From positions 1 through 21,493 of the IMG/VR virus record IMGVR_UViG_3300013212_000017: a stretch of DNA of 21,493 nucleotides; one strand, 5' to 3'. Source of the DNA: a virus. The translations under genes were made by a program, and so were the position numbers. Each line of letters opens with the position of its first letter. The first letter of the stretch is position 1. The notes beneath the pieces are model-generated. The model made no database searches. It saw nothing but the letters and a program-made list of their open reading frames with translations, and had not been told where the DNA came from. Positions 5,721 through 21,493 of this stretch are shown here, one piece after another.

Positions 5721-6098
5721 TTATATATTTGCACTTGGTGCTGTTGGTTCAGCCCATGGAAGGGCATCTGAGTCGACTTCAATCTGTGGCTTCTTGATTG
5801 CGTCGATCTGTTTTTGAATTTGTTCTTCGATATGTTCTTTGTATGTCGGGTTATTATTTACAACTTCTTGAATCCAACCGATAACCATAGCTTCAGTCAG
5901 TGTCTCGTATGTTGTAAAGTTTACAGGGTCTACTTGGTCAGGTTCAAACGGGGTTGCTCCAGTAAATGTACCCGAGTTACCTTCTTCATCTGTTCCAGTA
6001 AGCGTCCATCGAGTTTGAACAATAATGTCGTTGAGTTCCACAGATGGGTCATCTGTTTTCTTTAGACTTGTTATTTTCCATTTGTATGTTAGTGTCAT
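5721..6098 (-). CDS. Hypothetical protein (125 aa), conserved in aquatic T4-like phages
   Basis: The protein opens MTLTYKWKITSLKKTDDPSV, with beta-strand segments (NDIIVQTRWTLTGTDEEGNS), then a helical region with aromatic residues (TLTEAMVIGWIQEVV) and a long charged helix (HIEEQIQKQIDAIKKP). This pattern matches a domain of unknown function seen next to fibre genes in cyanophages (I believe DUF7936, from memory). A fibre-associated role is inferred from position only. The ATG overlaps the fibre stop codon (ATGA). Two TATAAATA octamers lie in the last 50 bases of the fibre gene, and the upstream one (6143-6136) is well placed to transcribe this gene late. Confidence 0.75.
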   Translation of the reverse strand: MTLTYKWKITSLKKTDDPSVELNDIIVQTRWTLTGTDEEGNSGTFTGATPFEPDQVDPVNFTTYETLTEAMVIGWIQEVVNNNPTYKEHIEEQIQKQIDAIKKPQIEVDSDALPWAEPTAPSANI

Positions 6099-6448
6099 GT
6101 ATTTATACCCATATTATTGATTTTTTCTTCAAGTCTATTTATATGTAGCTGTTGCTCTTTGATAGCTTCGATGAGTAGTGGGATGATCTTTTCCTTATCT
6201 ACGGTTAGATATTCACTATCATATCCTACAAGTTCTGTTGCATGATTATTGAATGGTGCAAGTACTACAGCGTCAGGAATTACTTCTTGAATTTCTTGAG
6301 CAATAACACCGGTTTCATGCATATTGAGCGGCTTAAATCCAATCTCTTCGATATTATCTACCCAGTCAAATTCAACACCACTAATTCTCATTAGCTTATC
6401 AATAGCATTTGTGATTGGCTTGATATTTGTCTTTAAACGTCTATCGGA
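6095..6448 (-). other. Region encoding the S74 self-cleaving chaperone domain
   Basis: The codon of the predicted cleavage Ser (S1927) is at 6448-6446, within GCT-TCC-GAT-AGA-CGT read on the minus strand. Everything downstream encodes the released trimerisation chaperone of about 13 kDa. The mature fibre would therefore end near residue 1926. The assignment follows from known endosialidase-type S74 domains; cleavage itself is inferred. Confidence 0.8.
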
Positions 6449-14914: not shown

Positions 14915-17077
14915 TTAAAAACCTAAACATGTAATATTGTGTCTGCCCCAAGTACCTTCTCGTGCATGAACACCTATTGTAAATCCTACGCCTGAATCGA
15001 TGGCTACTACTGTAGCTTCTACACCTTCAAGCAAACTTTCTTCTGGATCGTGGTCAGATGTTGTAGGTAAATCTACATAACAACTAATCTTACTTGTACC
15101 TGTAGCCCACGCAGCAGTTACAACTTCTTCAATATAGAAGTTATCCGCTTCAGAACCAAAGTCCACTTCCACCGTAACTTTATCTACAGAAGCACCTCCA
15201 CCTCCACCGGAACCGGTAAATCCAGTTGTTCCTTGGCTACCTGTAAACCCTGCGCCTGCTGAGCCTGTGAATCCAGTTGGTCCTGCTACAGTTGAGGCGG
15301 AACCGGTGAAACCTGTTGGACCCGCTACAGTTGATGCACTTCCTGTAAACCCTACCGGCCCTGCGACTGTTGAAGCCGAACCTGTGAATCCAGTTGGTCC
15401 TGCGACCGTGGAAGCTGAACCGGTGAAACCTGTTGGACCCGCTACGGTTGACGCGCTGCCAGTGAAACCAATAGGTCCTGCAACAGTCGATGCGGAACCG
15501 GTGAAACCTATATCGCCTTTCGACCCAGTAAATCCAATGACGCCTTGAATGCCTTGGCTGCCAGTAAAGCCGGTTGGACCAGCGACTGTCGACGCACTTC
15601 CGGTGAAACCAGTTGTACCTGTATTACCTAATGAACCTGTGAATCCAGTATTACCAATGTCGCCTTTGGAACCTGTGAATCCTATTACGCCTTGAATACC
15701 TTGCGAACCTGTGAATCCAGTTGGACCAACGACGGTTGAAGCAGAACCTGTAAATCCGATGTCACCTTTTGAACCTGTGAAGCCGATAACACCCTGTATA
15801 CCTTGGCTACCAGTAAATCCTATTACGCCCTGAATACCCTGCGAACCGGTAAATCCAATAATACCCTGCGAGCCAGTAAAACCAATTATGCCCTGCGAAC
15901 CGGTAAATCCTTGTGAACCTACGAAGCCAACGTTACCCTGCGAACCAGTGAACCCAATAATACCCTGTGAGCCAGTAAAACCAATTACACCTTGGATGCC
16001 CTGCGAGCCGGTAAAGCCAACACCCTGCGAACCTGTGAATCCTATTACGCCCTGCGAGCCAGTAAAGCCAAACGAACCAATGAATCCGGTGTCACCTTTG
16101 GAACCAGTGAAACCAATAATGCCTTGGCTGCCAGTAAATCCTAATGAACCAGTGTATCCAATTGGTCCCTGAATAGGTCCAACATCATTCCATGAATCGC
16201 CATCCCATACATAGAGATTGCCGTTAGCTTGGACGATGTAACCATCACCAACGCTACCGCCATATGAGCTTGGAAATCCTGGAAGGTTTGCAGCAGCGGC
16301 AACAGAGCCAAGAATCGTAACTGATGTACCATCAGATCCTCTTGAACCTGTGAATCCGGTTGTACCAGTATTTCCTAAATCACCTTTAGAACCAGTGAAT
16401 CCGATGATGCCTTGCGACCCGGTGAAGCCAAATGAACCAATGAATCCAGTATCGCCTTTGGAACCTGTAAAACCTGTAATACCAAACGAACCAGTGAAAC
16501 CTGTTGTACCGAATGAACCAGTGAAACCGGTAATGCCTTGCGAGCCGGTAAATCCAGTTGTACCGAATGAACCTGTGAAACCTACAATACCTTGGCTACC
16601 AACAAATCCGGTTGAGCCAGTAAATCCGATAATGCCTTGGCTACCAGTGAATCCTGTTATACCTTGGCTACCTGTGAACCCGATAATACCTTGAGTACCA
16701 GTGTCACCCTTGGAACCAACAAAACCTGTTGCGCCTTGAGAGCCAGTAAACCCTGTCGAGCCGGTGAAACCAGTGTCACCTTGACTACCAGCAAAACCTA
16801 CACCAGAACCCCAATATACTTCTTGGCCGTTCGATAGTAATGCTTGACCGCTTGAGCCGATAAAGCCATTAGCAGAAATTGTTTCAACTGTAAGGATAGA
16901 CACATTAGAGCCAACTTCAAACAGTACTGTGCCGTTTGAAGTGTGAACTTTTTGGTCTGTCAAGTTGATGGATAGTTCGCCCGGTTCAATATAACGTGGG
17001 CTGAGAGTATTAGCTGCTTCAGGGAGACGACCAGAGACGCTGGTTCTTTTATGAATAATTGGTCTAGTATTTGCCAA
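14915..17077 (-). CDS. Collagen-like tail fibre protein (720 aa), TTG start
   Basis: This is a trimeric fibre made largely of Gly-X-Y triplets. Residues 1-95 are a fibre-type N-terminus (MANTRPIIHKRTSVSGRLPE, with YIEPGELSINLTDQKVHTSN). From about residue 97 to 635 come dozens of GFTGSQG-type repeats. They are interrupted near residue 250-310 by a globular insert (SVTILGSVAAAANLPGFPSS, with VQANGNLYVWDGDSW), and late in the protein by eight GSASTVAGPT-type units, the last six in tandem. The final 85 residues after GGGGGA are a globular C-terminus. Thr and Ser dominate the Y positions and Pro is scarce. The codon at 17077-17075 is TTG, read as the start because it has AGGGAG 6 bases upstream, there is no ATG in the N-terminal region, and the N-terminal sequence is family-like. 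A late promoter lies 65-72 bases upstream. Confidence 0.9.
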   Translation of the reverse strand: MANTRPIIHKRTSVSGRLPEAANTLSPRYIEPGELSINLTDQKVHTSNGTVLFEVGSNVSILTVETISANGFIGSSGQALLSNGQEVYWGSGVGFAGSQGDTGFTGSTGFTGSQGATGFVGSKGDTGTQGIIGFTGSQGITGFTGSQGIIGFTGSTGFVGSQGIVGFTGSFGTTGFTGSQGITGFTGSFGTTGFTGSFGITGFTGSKGDTGFIGSFGFTGSQGIIGFTGSKGDLGNTGTTGFTGSRGSDGTSVTILGSVAAAANLPGFPSSYGGSVGDGYIVQANGNLYVWDGDSWNDVGPIQGPIGYTGSLGFTGSQGIIGFTGSKGDTGFIGSFGFTGSQGVIGFTGSQGVGFTGSQGIQGVIGFTGSQGIIGFTGSQGNVGFVGSQGFTGSQGIIGFTGSQGIIGFTGSQGIQGVIGFTGSQGIQGVIGFTGSKGDIGFTGSASTVVGPTGFTGSQGIQGVIGFTGSKGDIGNTGFTGSLGNTGTTGFTGSASTVAGPTGFTGSQGIQGVIGFTGSKGDIGFTGSASTVAGPIGFTGSASTVAGPTGFTGSASTVAGPTGFTGSASTVAGPVGFTGSASTVAGPTGFTGSASTVAGPTGFTGSAGAGFTGSQGTTGFTGSGGGGGASVDKVTVEVDFGSEADNFYIEEVVTAAWATGTSKISCYVDLPTTSDHDPEESLLEGVEATVVAIDSGVGFTIGVHAREGTWGRHNITCLGF
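15270..15503 (-). repeat. Six tandem 39-bp units encoding GFTGSASTVAGPT
   Basis: Inside the collagen-like gene, six consecutive 13-residue units encode nearly identical peptide (only the last Thr varies to Ile or Val) while third codon positions differ between units. Two more isolated copies occur upstream in the protein. The four residues STVA break the Gly-X-Y register once per unit. Confidence 0.85.
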
Positions 17078-17089
17078 TGTAGGCTCCCT
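17075..17089 (-). promoter_or_regulatory. Ribosome-binding site AGGGAG and TTG start of the collagen-like gene
   Basis: On the minus strand AGGGAG (17089-17084) is followed after 6 bases by TTG (17077-17075). No ATG exists near this position in frame. The spacing is ideal, which decides the start. Confidence 0.75.
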
Positions 17090-17112
17090 AACAGATATAT
17101 ATCTTATGTAAC

Positions 17113-17126
17113 CAACTATTTAGTTG
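17113..17126. promoter_or_regulatory. 14-bp perfect palindrome CAACTATTTAGTTG
   Basis: This is a perfect inverted repeat in the divergent region between the collagen-like gene and the glycosyltransferase operon. It touches the -35 element of the plus-strand promoter and lies in the presumed 5' leader of the collagen-like mRNA. It could be an operator or a small hairpin; the function is unproven. Confidence 0.4.
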
Positions 17127-17151
17127 ATTTTAATTCTAATCTATTTATAAT
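17124..17151 (+). promoter_or_regulatory. Sigma70-like promoter TTGATT-N16-TATAAT for the glycosyltransferase operon
   Basis: A near-consensus -35 (TTGATT, 17124-17129) and a perfect -10 (TATAAT, 17146-17151) are separated by 16 bases. Transcription would begin near 17158, giving a leader of about 40 bases before the glycosyltransferase ATG. The -10 shares bases with the minus-strand late promoter. Confidence 0.6.
17142..17149 (-). promoter_or_regulatory. T4-type late promoter octamer TATAAATA for the collagen-like gene
   Basis: A perfect TATAAATA on the minus strand lies in intergenic DNA 65-72 bases upstream of the TTG start of the collagen-like gene. It is the only intergenic perfect octamer I found and heads the run of fibre genes. 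It overlaps the -10 of the divergent sigma70-like promoter. Confidence 0.7.
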
Positions 17152-17156
17152 CAACA

Positions 17157-17198
17157 ATGTGGCGACTAAAACATTTATGGGTCGTGTGGGAAGAATAA
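17157..17198 (+). other. Possible 13-codon leader ORF ending in TAATG at the glycosyltransferase start
   Basis: An ATG at 17157-17159 opens a frame encoding MWRLKHLWVVWEE. Its TAA (17196-17198) shares its last A with the ATG of the glycosyltransferase gene. There is no Shine-Dalgarno site, and the ATG coincides with the predicted transcription start, so translation would be leaderless. It may be chance, but the TAATG junction is the type used elsewhere in this window. Confidence 0.25.
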
Positions 17199-19225
17199 TG
17201 AAGATTTGTTTTATTGATACTCTAGGACTGACATATGACGGTTCCACTTTAACTAAACGAGGACTTGGTGGTTCTGAGTCTGCCGTTATTCGTATGGCCG
17301 AAGAGCTATCCAAACTTGGTTTTATAGTCACAGTATTCAACGACTGTGAATCCGACGACTCTATGCCTGGGTTATATGGTCGTGTGCTTTATAGACCTAT
17401 TCGCTTAGTATCAACAGCTGACTATTACGATATTTGTATTGTATCCCGTACTATTAAACCTATTGAAGAACAGTGGAGTGTAGTTGAAAAAGCTAAACAC
17501 GTCATTCTTTGGATGCATGATACGTTCTGCGAAGGTGACAATCAAATAGAATATCTTGTCAATATGGGCAAGATAAACGAAATCTTTACTCTATCCGATT
17601 GGCATACCGCATATGTTACTAACTGTGACCATGGATACAGACGTAACTTTGAAATTCTCAAGCACAAGATATTCCAGACCCGCAACGGTATTAGCATTCT
17701 CCCTGAGTGGATTGATATAAAAGCTAAAGACCCTCATCACTTCGTGTTCAATTCATCCGTTACAAAAGGGATGATTCCACTCGTAACTAAAATATGGCCA
17801 CGTATTCATCATTTCCTTCCAGAGGCAAAGCTGACTGTCATTGGTGGATATTATAAGTTCCGCGAGGGCGCTGCGCCTGACCAGCAAGAGCAGGACTATC
17901 GTAAGCTCGTTGCTGAGTATCCAGAGGTAAACTTCACTGGTATTATCACACAATCTGAAATCTCAGATATCTTACGCGATGCTACTTTCCTATTGTATCC
18001 ATCTGCTTTCCCAGAGACGTTTGGTATCTCTACGCTTGAAGCTCTCGCGCACAACGTCGTACCAATTACCTGTCGCTCTGGTGCGCTGGAAGAGACAGCT
18101 CTAGACATTGCTTCATATAAAATGAACTACACAGTTGAGAAGAACTGGTCTGTTCCTTGGCTGAACGAAGAAGAGCAGATTGAGAAGTTCATCAACCTGA
18201 CATTCGAGGCTGTCAATACACCATACCTCACGCAACAGAAAGCGTATGCATGCAATCAAGTTAAGGATATTTGTACTTGGGATACTGTTGCATTGCAATG
18301 GAAGCAGCATTTTTATAGCGTGATGGGTGAGTTTCTTCCTATCGAAGAGTATAGAAAAGCTCAGCAGATTAACTATAAGGTATGCAAGACGTTTGGTAGA
18401 CGTTTCCGTAACCTCGAGAATCTTCGCATTCCATCAAACAATCAAAAGTACATTGGTATCATTACTGCAGTATACAATGCTGAAGAGTATATTGAGAGAT
18501 GTATTCGTTCAGTTGCATCACAGGATTATGACAACTACCTGATGTACATTGTAGATGATAAGTCAACAGACAATACAGTTGCAGTCGCTAAGCAGACTAT
18601 CGAATCTCTACCTCACAATCTACGCAACAACTTCTGTGTTATTCAGAACGAAGAAAATAAAGGTGCAGTCGCTAACCACTATGATGTGATTAAAGAGTAT
18701 TCACTCGAAGAGGACTTCTTTATTATCTTGGATGGTGACGATTGGCTTGTTAACGATGCTAATATCTTCCATATGTACAACAACCTCTATCACGATGGAG
18801 CTGAGTTCACATATGGTTCTTGCTATTCAGTCGTGGATAATATTCCGCTTATCGCACAGCCATACCCACCTGAAGTGAAAGCTAATAAGAGCTATCGTAA
18901 GTATTTGTTTAATTGGAATATGCCATATACACATCTACGTACATTCAGCGCAACTCTCGTTGAAGATTTAACCGAAGATGATTTAAAGATTGGTTGCTAT
19001 TGGCCGAAAGCTGGTGGAGACACTGCGCTGTTCTACTATCTAATCGAGCGTGCAGACCCTGATAAAGTAATCTGTGTATCTGATGTAGTATACAACTACA
19101 ATGACGCAAATCCTATTAACGATTACAAGATTAATTCGATTGAACAAACGACTAACGCTAGTCAAATTCTAGCCGATAAACCGTCACCCTTTACCCCTGG
19201 ACAGATTGATCTGAGACCTCTATGA
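17198..19225 (+). CDS. Two-domain glycosyltransferase: GT-B (GT4-like) fused to GT-A (GT2-like)
   Basis: This 675-residue fusion carries two sugar transferases. I start at the ATG at 17198 (MKICFIDTLGLTYDG); an in-frame extension upstream would run through the promoter. Domain one (about 1-390) is GT-B: GGSES at 24-28, the sugar-binding region with LTVIGGYYK, and PETFGISTLEAL with the EX7E pair E273/E281 that contacts the nucleotide sugar. Domain two (about 415-640) is GT-A: IGIITAVYNAEEYIERCIRS at its start, VDDKSTDNT, and the metal-binding IILDGDDW at about 509-516. Such fusions usually add two different sugars in sequence. It overlaps the next gene by ATGA, forming a two-gene operon on the strand opposite to the structural genes. 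Acceptor and sugars are unknown. Confidence 0.88.
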   Translation: MKICFIDTLGLTYDGSTLTKRGLGGSESAVIRMAEELSKLGFIVTVFNDCESDDSMPGLYGRVLYRPIRLVSTADYYDICIVSRTIKPIEEQWSVVEKAKHVILWMHDTFCEGDNQIEYLVNMGKINEIFTLSDWHTAYVTNCDHGYRRNFEILKHKIFQTRNGISILPEWIDIKAKDPHHFVFNSSVTKGMIPLVTKIWPRIHHFLPEAKLTVIGGYYKFREGAAPDQQEQDYRKLVAEYPEVNFTGIITQSEISDILRDATFLLYPSAFPETFGISTLEALAHNVVPITCRSGALEETALDIASYKMNYTVEKNWSVPWLNEEEQIEKFINLTFEAVNTPYLTQQKAYACNQVKDICTWDTVALQWKQHFYSVMGEFLPIEEYRKAQQINYKVCKTFGRRFRNLENLRIPSNNQKYIGIITAVYNAEEYIERCIRSVASQDYDNYLMYIVDDKSTDNTVAVAKQTIESLPHNLRNNFCVIQNEENKGAVANHYDVIKEYSLEEDFFIILDGDDWLVNDANIFHMYNNLYHDGAEFTYGSCYSVVDNIPLIAQPYPPEVKANKSYRKYLFNWNMPYTHLRTFSATLVEDLTEDDLKIGCYWPKAGGDTALFYYLIERADPDKVICVSDVVYNYNDANPINDYKINSIEQTTNASQILADKPSPFTPGQIDLRPL

Positions 19226-20535
19226 AAAAAATATTGATTGCTATTCCAACTGCTCGTTACATCGAAGCAGAAACTTTTAAATGTATATATGACCTCGAAG
19301 TGCCAGAAGGGTATGAGGTAACATTTCAATACTTCTATGGATATCGAGTTGACCAAGTTCGCAACTTGATTGCTGATTGGGTTGTACGCGGTTTTGATTA
19401 TCTGTTCTCAGTTGACCACGACATTACCTTTCCACCAGATACACTGAAGAAGCTCTTATCGCATGACCAAGACTTGGTATCAGGCGTGTATCGTCAGCGT
19501 CTTGAGCCACAAGCTCTTGAGATATACGAACCGTTTGGCAATCGTATGACCGCAGAGGAGCTTTTTGCTAAGAACTGGAAGCTTCTTGGAATTGGTGGCT
19601 GCGGCTTTGGTTGCGTACTCGTCAAGCGCGAAGTGTTCGTTGGTGTCGGATATCCGCAATTTGTGTATCATCCAGCTCTCGACCATGGCAATACCATCAG
19701 CGAAGATACAGACTTCTGCAAAAAGGCTATTGCAAAAGGATTTAAACTCTGGTGTGACCCAACTGTGCTCTGTGGACATATTGGTTCAACAACGATGACT
19801 GTTCAAGTACCGCCTATCGTTAAGGTCAATGCGGTTCAAGAGAGACTCAGAGAGCTCTCCAATCAGAGATTACTTCCAAAAGCGCACGTAGATTATCTCA
19901 AGATATTGAGAGATGGTGGTGTTAATCCAAAGGTCATTTATGACATTGGTTCATGCGTTATGCATTGGACGAACGAAGCAAAGCGTGTGTGGCCTGATGC
20001 TCACTATTATTGCTTTGAGGCTATGGATGAGACAGAGTTTCTCTATGACGAAGCGAGACTCAATGGTCTACGCGTTGGAAGCTGGCATGGTGTACTGACG
20101 GATTATGATAATAAGATAATTAAGTTCAATCAGAACCTAGAGCATCCGGGCGGCAATTCTTACTTCGTAGAGAACCCAGAGTTGAGTCCGATGGCAAGAG
20201 AACTTTGGACCAAAGAGAATCAGGTCGAGAAAGTCGGTATGACTCTCGATACGGTCATTGACCAAAACTATGCTATGAATGCGTGGGAATACCCTGACCT
20301 GATTAAAATGGATATTCAGGGAGCGGAGTTAGATGTTCTTCGTGGAGCGTCAACAGCTCTTAAATGTGCTGAGCATCTCATTCTCGAGCTTCAGCATAAA
20401 GATTATAACATCGGCGCACCAAAGGCTGAAGAAGTAATCAGTTATCTAGAGAACCTAGGATGGATTAACCATGGAATGTTCTGTGGAAGCGATCTTGGAG
20501 TTGATGGTGATTATTACTTCTCAAAGAAGCATTAA
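19222..20535 (+). CDS. Glycosyltransferase (GT-A) fused to FkbM-type methyltransferase
   Basis: This 437-residue fusion is probably cytoplasmic. Residues 1-200 are GT-A-like: ILIAIPTARYIEAETF, then YLFSVDHDITFPPDTL with the metal-binding DHD at 65-67. Further GT-A signs are GIGGCGFGCVLVKREVF near 123-139, SEDTDFCKKA at 160-169 and a late His in CGHIGSTTM. Residues about 235-437 are an FkbM-family SAM-dependent methyltransferase: VIYDIGSCV (238-246) as the SAM loop, CFEAMDETE with the acidic residue, GNSYFVEN, and the hallmark IKMDIQGAELDVLRGA (361-376). FkbM enzymes usually O-methylate sugars. The product would be a sugar added and then capped by methylation. The start overlaps the upstream gene (ATGA), so it is coupled to it. 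The stop shares TTAA with the convergent gene. Confidence 0.88.
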   Translation: MKKILIAIPTARYIEAETFKCIYDLEVPEGYEVTFQYFYGYRVDQVRNLIADWVVRGFDYLFSVDHDITFPPDTLKKLLSHDQDLVSGVYRQRLEPQALEIYEPFGNRMTAEELFAKNWKLLGIGGCGFGCVLVKREVFVGVGYPQFVYHPALDHGNTISEDTDFCKKAIAKGFKLWCDPTVLCGHIGSTTMTVQVPPIVKVNAVQERLRELSNQRLLPKAHVDYLKILRDGGVNPKVIYDIGSCVMHWTNEAKRVWPDAHYYCFEAMDETEFLYDEARLNGLRVGSWHGVLTDYDNKIIKFNQNLEHPGGNSYFVENPELSPMARELWTKENQVEKVGMTLDTVIDQNYAMNAWEYPDLIKMDIQGAELDVLRGASTALKCAEHLILELQHKDYNIGAPKAEEVISYLENLGWINHGMFCGSDLGVDGDYYFSKKH

Positions 20536-20771
20536 AACTCGCCGCCATCTAAGGCGCCGCTAATATCATCTAACTGCATGACCTTAGCTTCCCACTTATC
20601 AGTATCTGTATTCCATACTAGGGTTGCTCCTGAAGTATCAACCTGCACATCAACATCTGCAACGTCTGCAATTTTGTTAATTGTCGCAGCAGATTGGCCC
20701 TTAACGATGAGCGCCTGTGTTGGCTGAATTACCCCGTTTGAATTTAATCTCGCTTTAATAACTAAGCTCAT
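20532..20771 (-). CDS. Small hypothetical, probable virion protein (79 aa)
   Basis: This protein of 79 residues starts MSLVIKARLNSNGVIQPTQA and contains ATLVWNTDTDKWEAKVMQLD, a phrase typical of small phage structural or fibre-associated proteins. No enzyme motif is seen. It overlaps the upstream 109-residue gene by ATGA with GGAG before it, so the pair is coupled. Its stop overlaps the stop of the convergent glycosyltransferase/methyltransferase gene by 4 bases. Confidence 0.65.
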   Translation of the reverse strand: MSLVIKARLNSNGVIQPTQALIVKGQSAATINKIADVADVDVQVDTSGATLVWNTDTDKWEAKVMQLDDISGALDGGEF

Positions 20772-21097
20772 CTCGTTACTCCTGGTGTGACTGTTACAAT
20801 TCCCTCAACGAGGCGGGATACAGAGCCGCCTGAAGTTGTGATTTCAACATCATAAACATAACGCCCAGCTGTAAGACTGTTTGTAGCATTAGATGACATT
20901 GCAAGAGTAATAACACCCGTATTCGCTGCAATGGATGTGTCAAATGCATATGATATTACAGATGAATAATGCTTACGCATCTGTGCGTTTGCAGTATACC
21001 CGGTTAAATTAATTGGCAGATCATCTTCGTCTGTAACCGAAACGGTCGTTGAAAACGTAGACCCTTGATCTATAATGATATTACCTTTGATTGCCAT
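20768..21097 (-). CDS. Small beta-sandwich virion protein, BppU/Ig-like (109 aa)
   Basis: The sequence IIIDQGSTFSTTVSVTDEDD followed by LPINLTGYTANAQMRKHY and AGRYVYDVEITTSGGSVSRL has the layout of the N-terminal domain of phage baseplate protein BppU and similar Ig-like domains (GDTFTLTVTVTD...PVDLTGYTA.AQIR). I infer a baseplate or tail decoration protein. A GAGGAA ribosome-binding site lies a few bases before the ATG. A weak late-promoter variant GATAAATA lies at 21127-21120. Confidence 0.7.
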   Translation of the reverse strand: MAIKGNIIIDQGSTFSTTVSVTDEDDLPINLTGYTANAQMRKHYSSVISYAFDTSIAANTGVITLAMSSNATNSLTAGRYVYDVEITTSGGSVSRLVEGIVTVTPGVTR

Positions 21098-21119
21098 ATG
21101 TTCCTCGTCGATTATTCTT

Positions 21120-21127
21120 TATTTATC
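21120..21127 (-). promoter_or_regulatory. Weak late-promoter variant GATAAATA
   Basis: This minus-strand octamer differs from TATAAATA at one position and ends 22 bases before the ATG of the 109-residue gene. That spacing leaves room for a short leader containing GAGGAA. Confidence 0.35.
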
Positions 21128-21139
21128 ATAACAAAACAG

Positions 21140-21168
21140 TTGCACTTTTTATGAAAATAGGTTATAAG
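21140..21168 (+). promoter_or_regulatory. Sigma70-like promoter TTGCAC-N17-TATAAG
   Basis: A -35 TTGCAC (21140-21145) and a -10 TATAAG (21163-21168) are spaced exactly 17 bases apart, about 25 bases before the plus-strand peptidase gene. An AAGGA ribosome-binding site at 21181-21185 follows. This suggests separate, probably early or host-driven, transcription. Confidence 0.55.
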
Positions 21169-21192
21169 AAGATATAGAATAAGGAAATAGAG

Positions 21193-21493
21193 ATGTTGAA
21201 GTATTTTGCATTAGGTTTGGTCGCGCTGGCAACTCCAGTAGCAGCTGCTGATATGAATGACCTCAAGGAAGTTCATAGTCAGGTTAACTCTAAAATCAAA
21301 TACAAAATGGACGACCTGAATAAGGATTCATGGGAACTCCCTACCAAGACTGGTGACTGTGAAGACTTCGCACTTCTTAAGCGCCAGCTTCTTATTGACC
21401 GTGGTTGGGATGCAAACGACCTGTCAATCATTATCGTTAAGCGTGAAATTGATACTAACAAGCCTGCACCAAATGGTAAGCGTTATGTATATG
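21193..21493 (+). CDS. Secreted transglutaminase-like cysteine peptidase, BTLCP/C93 family (3' end outside the window)
   Basis: The first 100 residues of an open frame are present. Residues 1-19 form a signal peptide: a Lys near the start, a hydrophobic core FALGLVALA and an AAA cleavage site before Asp20. The mature part carries GDCEDFALLKRQLLIDRGW, with the predicted catalytic Cys56, then LSIIIVKRE. This is the pattern of bacterial transglutaminase-like cysteine peptidases (DUF920/C93), the family that includes LapG, the periplasmic protease that releases the biofilm adhesin LapA. The catalytic His and Asp would lie past the window end. AAGGA 7 bases before the ATG and a sigma70-like promoter support the start. 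It is transcribed against the structural genes. The exact substrate is unknown. Confidence 0.85.
   Translation, partial: MLKYFALGLVALATPVAAADMNDLKEVHSQVNSKIKYKMDDLNKDSWELPTKTGDCEDFALLKRQLLIDRGWDANDLSIIIVKREIDTNKPAPNGKRYVY

Follow-up and report, generated by a model that had tools for sequence, protein, structure and literature searches.

How can a promoter of early type and one of late type, pointing away from each other, come to use the same base pairs? The question is raised by an intergenic region of the window, the whole stretch of 21,493 nucleotides analysed here, which is a 21-kb fragment of a T4-superfamily phage: gp13, gp14, gp15 and gp17 match Stenotrophomonas phage DLP6, and the neck gene also matches Sinorhizobium phages phiM12 and phiN3 at the DNA level. 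A preliminary description had read a sigma70-like -10 hexamer toward a glycosyltransferase (GT) and a T4-type late box toward a tail fibre gene. It had concluded that only one polymerase form can hold the site, so that sugar enzymes are made before the fibre that they modify. The coordinates given for both boxes proved exact, as did their four-base overlap, TATA (Table 1). We consider it quite probable that the site is a divergent early/late promoter pair in steric competition, located at the border of the late structural module.

Table 1. Features of the promoter region and its flanking genes, in coordinates of the window (GT, glycosyltransferase).
Feature	Position	Strand	Remark
Collagen-like tail fibre gene	14915-17077	-	TTG start at 17077
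Shine-Dalgarno AGGGAG of fibre gene	17084-17089	-	read from the sequence
Palindrome AGATATATATCT	17093-17104		fibre leader, between dyad and Shine-Dalgarno
Dyad ATCAACTAAATAGTTGGT	17111-17128	-	predicted to fold as a hairpin shortly after the 5' end of the late fibre transcript
-35-like hexamer TTGATT	17124-17129	+	sigma70-type promoter facing the GT
Late start (predicted)	near 17136	-	from T4 box geometry
T4-type late box TATAAATA	17149-17142	-	exact octamer, faces the fibre gene
Bases common to late box and -10 (TATA)	17146-17149		
-10 hexamer TATAAT	17146-17151	+	sigma70-type promoter, 16-nt spacer
Sigma70 start (predicted)	about 17158	+	from known geometry
Two-domain GT (GT group 1 + GT family 2)	17198-19225	+	ATG at 17198, protein start MKICFIDTLGL
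Second sugar-related gene	19222-20535	+	N-terminal stretch matches a phage glycosyltransferase family; FkbM methyltransferase domain; probably in the same operon as the GT

Within the window, the counts hardly exceed chance. The late octamer occurs three times (1.95 expected) and sigma70-like sites occur 30 times (28.5 expected); the site facing the GT, TTGATT-N16-TATAAT, scores 10/12 and has p=0.09 against dinucleotide shuffles. Its -35 (4/6, N16) is weaker than that of most of its closest relatives, and many relatives have TTGACA or TTGACT instead. The bare overlap is also cheap, because an AT in front of TATAAATA is enough to give TATAAT on the opposite strand. AT precedes the late box at 11 of 99 non-divergent late promoters of the relatives, with a background AT frequency of 8.9%. 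Since the window counts alone are compatible with chance, relatives were compared, and the case for the promoter pair rests on them.

Whether the two boxes belong to genuine promoter classes was assessed in 13 related contigs together with the window, counting motifs located 8-110 nt upstream of a same-strand gene. Of 89 TATAAATA octamers, 62 are found in this position. The first base of the late box varies, as it does in other T4-like phages: AATAAATA is found 32 times upstream of genes and never in the opposite orientation (GATAAATA: 23 versus 1). Permuted control words are mostly without bias (TATAATA 13/20, TAATAATA 1/9); a directional bias is seen with words, ATAAATAT among them, that hold the greater part of the box. 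The octamer is a true directional upstream element in the related phages. Late boxes also precede gp23, gp18 and gp13 in relatives, and an alignment of 99 late promoters of the group has A-rich positions after the box and no upstream consensus. In box sequence, A/T-rich downstream region, lack of a -35 and directional placement upstream of structural genes, these elements correspond to T4-type late promoters. Homologues of gp55, the late sigma factor, are encoded in the related contigs G003 and G004; none was seen in the window, which is a 21-kb fragment. The other class is likewise real: near-consensus sigma70 pairs occur 16 times upstream of genes, as against 0-2 times for permuted controls, and five of these pairs belong to GT promoters of the composite type described below. 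Measured against TTGACA, a spacer of 16-18 nt and TATAAT upstream of a non-structural gene, the window reaches 10/12 and relatives reach up to 12/12.

Conservation was examined in 80 IMG/VR loci that encode the GT (52-67% amino-acid identity), with ORFs called by a simple procedure in the relatives. Those GT-upstream regions that are long enough to compare form 30 groups at 90% identity, the window included. In 27 of the 30 groups the exact late box lies within 110 nt and points away from the GT, against 1.4 expected from shuffles, and a sigma70-like promoter toward the GT reaches p<0.05 against shuffles in 17 of 30; the relatives are phylogenetically linked, and these counts are not counts of independent events. 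One further locus (L047) has the late-box variant CATAAATA. The late box is absent from two groups (L078 and L081), where a gene on the same strand precedes the GT; neither box is found there. Contigs G001, G006 and G007 carry the 12/12 consensus TTGACA-N17-TATAAT. The preliminary description had assigned the boxes to an early-type and a late-type promoter, each facing its own gene; these figures bear it out and show both boxes to be conserved.

The manner in which the boxes are joined varies. Late box and sigma70 -10 share bases in 19 of 28 relatives. The composite of the window, TATTTATAAT, is found in 14 of the 28 non-redundant relatives with a late box; four groups overlap in another register, TATATTTATA or TATATTTATG, where the -10 is TATATT preceded by TG, and in L052 the boxes have two bases in common. 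In the remaining nine of 28 the boxes are apart, with 0-33 bp between them. Within the TATTTATAAT class 10 of 10 bases are identical and flanking columns mostly agree in 6-11 of 14 sequences, an identity that is partly circular, the class having been chosen by its motif. The sharing of bases is thus real and widespread without being essential. Both promoters are independently kept, being separate yet still within 33 bp where the overlap has been lost. What selection maintains is a pair of promoters that a single polymerase would cover, most often with bases in common. The overlap as originally observed is both correct and beyond chance.

It might be argued that TATAAT merely results from an extension of the late box, ATTATAAATA, so that the late promoter would be the only real one and the GT would be transcribed by read-through or from elsewhere. 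The extended box is indeed also found at late promoters without a divergent gene, namely upstream of gp23, gp18 and gp13, and the window offers only TTGATT at N16 as its -35. The -35 region nevertheless distinguishes the GT loci: at those with TATTTATAAT it matches the consensus at 6, 5, 6, 6, 6, 4 (window) and 3 (G010) of six positions, mostly 5-6/6 at N16-17, compared with only 2-3/6 at nine non-GT sites with the same composite. In addition, four relatives (L065, L049, L045, L057) have a strong sigma70 promoter apart from the late box. The -35 comparison weakens the by-product explanation, which we regard as unlikely. An exact scan of IMG/VR for TAGTTGAC-N11-13-TATTTATAATG returned 12 hits, all of them on contigs already among the GT loci. 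Scanning T4, phiM12, phiN3 and DLP6 for TATTTATAAT gave a single copy, in T4; it lies upstream of gene 20, after the codirectional genes 18 and 19, and not between divergent genes.

For the divergent promoter pair we propose the following sequence of events. Early, host sigma70 polymerase would read rightward from TTGATT-N16-TATAAT into the GT operon; later, a gp55-type polymerase bound to the replication clamp would open TATAAATA and read leftward into the fibre gene. With the central TATA common to both sites, one polymerase would be bound at a time. In T4 the late box lies at -13 to -6 (PMC1524935), and with this geometry the predicted starts in the window are ~22 bp apart around the shared TATA, pointing away from each other. 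Because this distance lies within one footprint, two polymerases should not be able to sit together; judged by the size of a polymerase footprint, the steric exclusion put forward in the preliminary description is likely. The early-then-late order does not require the overlap. In T4 a change of sigma factor brings about the transition from early to late (PMC2988020, PMC3014915), and the overlap should therefore not be called its cause. Timing would probably be set mainly by gp55 replacing sigma70. Once the late promoter has gained strength, binding of the late enzyme to the site probably contributes to silencing of the GT promoter as well; bidirectional promoters of E. coli show mutual interference only if one of their directions is strong (PMC12825309).

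These E. coli promoters (Warman/Grainger; PMC12825309) are among the closest comparisons: they have divergent starts around a shared -10, at which one binding event excludes the other, and the same is predicted here. They use sigma70 in both directions, whereas here the sigma factors are apparently different, which would give a built-in time order. An ordinary symmetric bidirectional sigma70 promoter, with the resemblance to T4 late boxes irrelevant, would agree with the shared TATA and with divergent starts ~22 bp apart, within the 10-23 bp described for E. coli (PMC12825309). It would not explain why a conserved -35 is not required at the minus-strand box, why this box agrees with the motif found ahead of structural genes across these phages, or why it stays exactly TATAAATA even where the GT -10 moves away. 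We hold such a promoter to be highly improbable. A literature search for overlapping early and late phage promoters returned nothing specific.

The identity of the late gene bears on the purpose that had been ascribed to the overlap. Opposite the GT there is usually a fibre gene, with an N-terminal KRT..GR motif. Its place is taken by the neck gene gp13 in L049 and L052, by a tail-associated protein in L053 and by another, probably structural, gene in L045, L047 and L065. This variety of late partners weakens the link from GT to fibre acceptor, and the promoter pair appears, from these arrangements, to belong to the GT cassette at the edge of the late module and not to a partnership of GT and fibre. 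A role of the overlap in having glycosylation enzymes made ahead of the fibre they modify would agree with the adjacency of GT and fibre in most relatives with this promoter. Several relatives with both promoters have gp13 or another structural gene on the opposite side, however, and the acceptor of the GT could equally be a host surface glycan. This part of the preliminary description is not supported, and we give it very little credence.

Past the late box and ahead of the fibre start, the leader of the fibre gene contains a dyad. Read on the other strand, its distal (outer) arm is the GT -35 in the window, and the two often coincide (GTTGAC). The arms change together: across 21 different sequences, which are related and hence not independent events, 93.2% of cells are paired on the fibre strand (86.4% on the other strand), a value favoured in distant clades by the choice of the best dyad in the leader as its centre. 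Six of seven pairs are changed on both sides. The covariation score is 0.650, compared with 0.231 in shuffles (0 of 500 reach the observed value) and 0.05-0.11 when the dyad is slid. The arms differ between phages, and the core TANNTA is invariant. Hairpins are not a general property of such leaders. Over 127 late-promoter leaders the median z is only 0.2, which makes the fibre leader unusual. A search of Rfam with the fibre leader hairpin gave no match.

One could regard the dyad as an operator for a DNA-binding regulator that switches the promoters by covering the GT -35. Its symmetry is held while the arm sequences change, its distal arm is the GT -35, and the invariant TANNTA core includes bases that would sit in an RNA loop. 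Other observations point toward an RNA hairpin. G-U wobbles fit the fibre mRNA in 14 cells and the other strand in 4. The dyad follows the fibre: in G011, where the fibre gene is away from the GT, the leader still has GATAAATA, GATTACATAATC and CTCTATATAGAG, GT loci facing gp13 are without the dyad, and its symmetry is lost in L047 and L053, where the fibre has been replaced. From this distribution the dyad seems to go with the fibre gene and not with the GT. The dyad is also present once per contig, in the five sequences checked. An operator is thus doubtful, if less so than the other alternatives weighed above. We note that the second element of the leader, the palindrome AGATATATATCT, is nearly invariant in the main clade and takes the form CTCTATATAGAG in L035, L044 and L055. 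It occurs once per contig in the window and in the eight contigs holding it. A multi-site regulon was rejected for dyad and palindrome alike, both being single copy in the contigs tested. Leader hairpins are known from T4 genes e and 43 (PMC3014915), where RNA hairpins lie near the translation start and, in gene e, are interleaved with late promoters; the fibre hairpin differs in lying fully inside the late transcript, in having arms that differ per phage and in its TANNTA core.

A more specific form of the competing promoter pair can be offered tentatively, at somewhat less than even chances: a bidirectional promoter shared by two sigma factors would act as a self-timed switch, in which the replication-coupled gp55 polymerase takes the TATA, starts the late gene and thereby evicts the early promoter, while the same few dozen base pairs encode the 5' hairpin of the late mRNA. 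If true, the switch would have been conserved at the border of the GT through replacements of the late gene on the other side. The locus is in any case a compact example of putative steric exclusion between a host-sigma and a phage-sigma polymerase, recurring in many uncultured T4-like phages. It suggests that one set of bases can hold promoters together with the hairpin of an mRNA leader, and that a cassette of sugar enzymes may retain its own early-type promoter beside a late module.

With regard to T4 itself, the late promoters (gp55/gp33/gp45) use the same octamer, which here too is directional upstream of structural genes; they differ in that the late box of the present locus is interlocked with a sigma70 promoter. 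The early promoters of T4 likewise place sigma70 -35 and -10 elements upstream of non-structural genes, with -35 elements of GTTTAC type and UP elements (PMC1524935), while the -35 described here is TTGACA-like. T4 also has a composite of two late promoters, TATTTATAAATA, between genes 26 and 51. Such divergent late-late composites, with the same shared TATA, are found in relatives as well (G001 29111, G004 67342, G005 33426, G002 64087). In G001, G004 and G005 they are flanked by the same pair of genes, encoding a protein of 405-418 aa and one of 114-115 aa; the latter presumably resembles TnsA-like nucleases.

Further observations concern the window. A second divergent intergenic region, 20768-21193, has GATAAATA (-) facing a 109-aa tail-associated gene and TTGCAC-N17-TATAAG (+) facing the gene at 21193, and is a possible second early/late pair. 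Two TATAAATA boxes at 6095-6143, inside the end of a long structural gene, precede the gene 5721-6098 by 1 and 37 nt. In most close relatives (L003, L013, L022, L029 and similar loci) the GT start codon follows TATAAT by only 6-9 nt, and the GT mRNA of these phages may be leaderless or nearly so. The corresponding distance is ~37 nt longer in the window (17157-17198), and this interval holds a 13-codon ORF, MWRLKHLWVVWEE, that ends in a stop overlapping with the start of the GT (TAATG) and possibly encodes a translationally coupled leader peptide.
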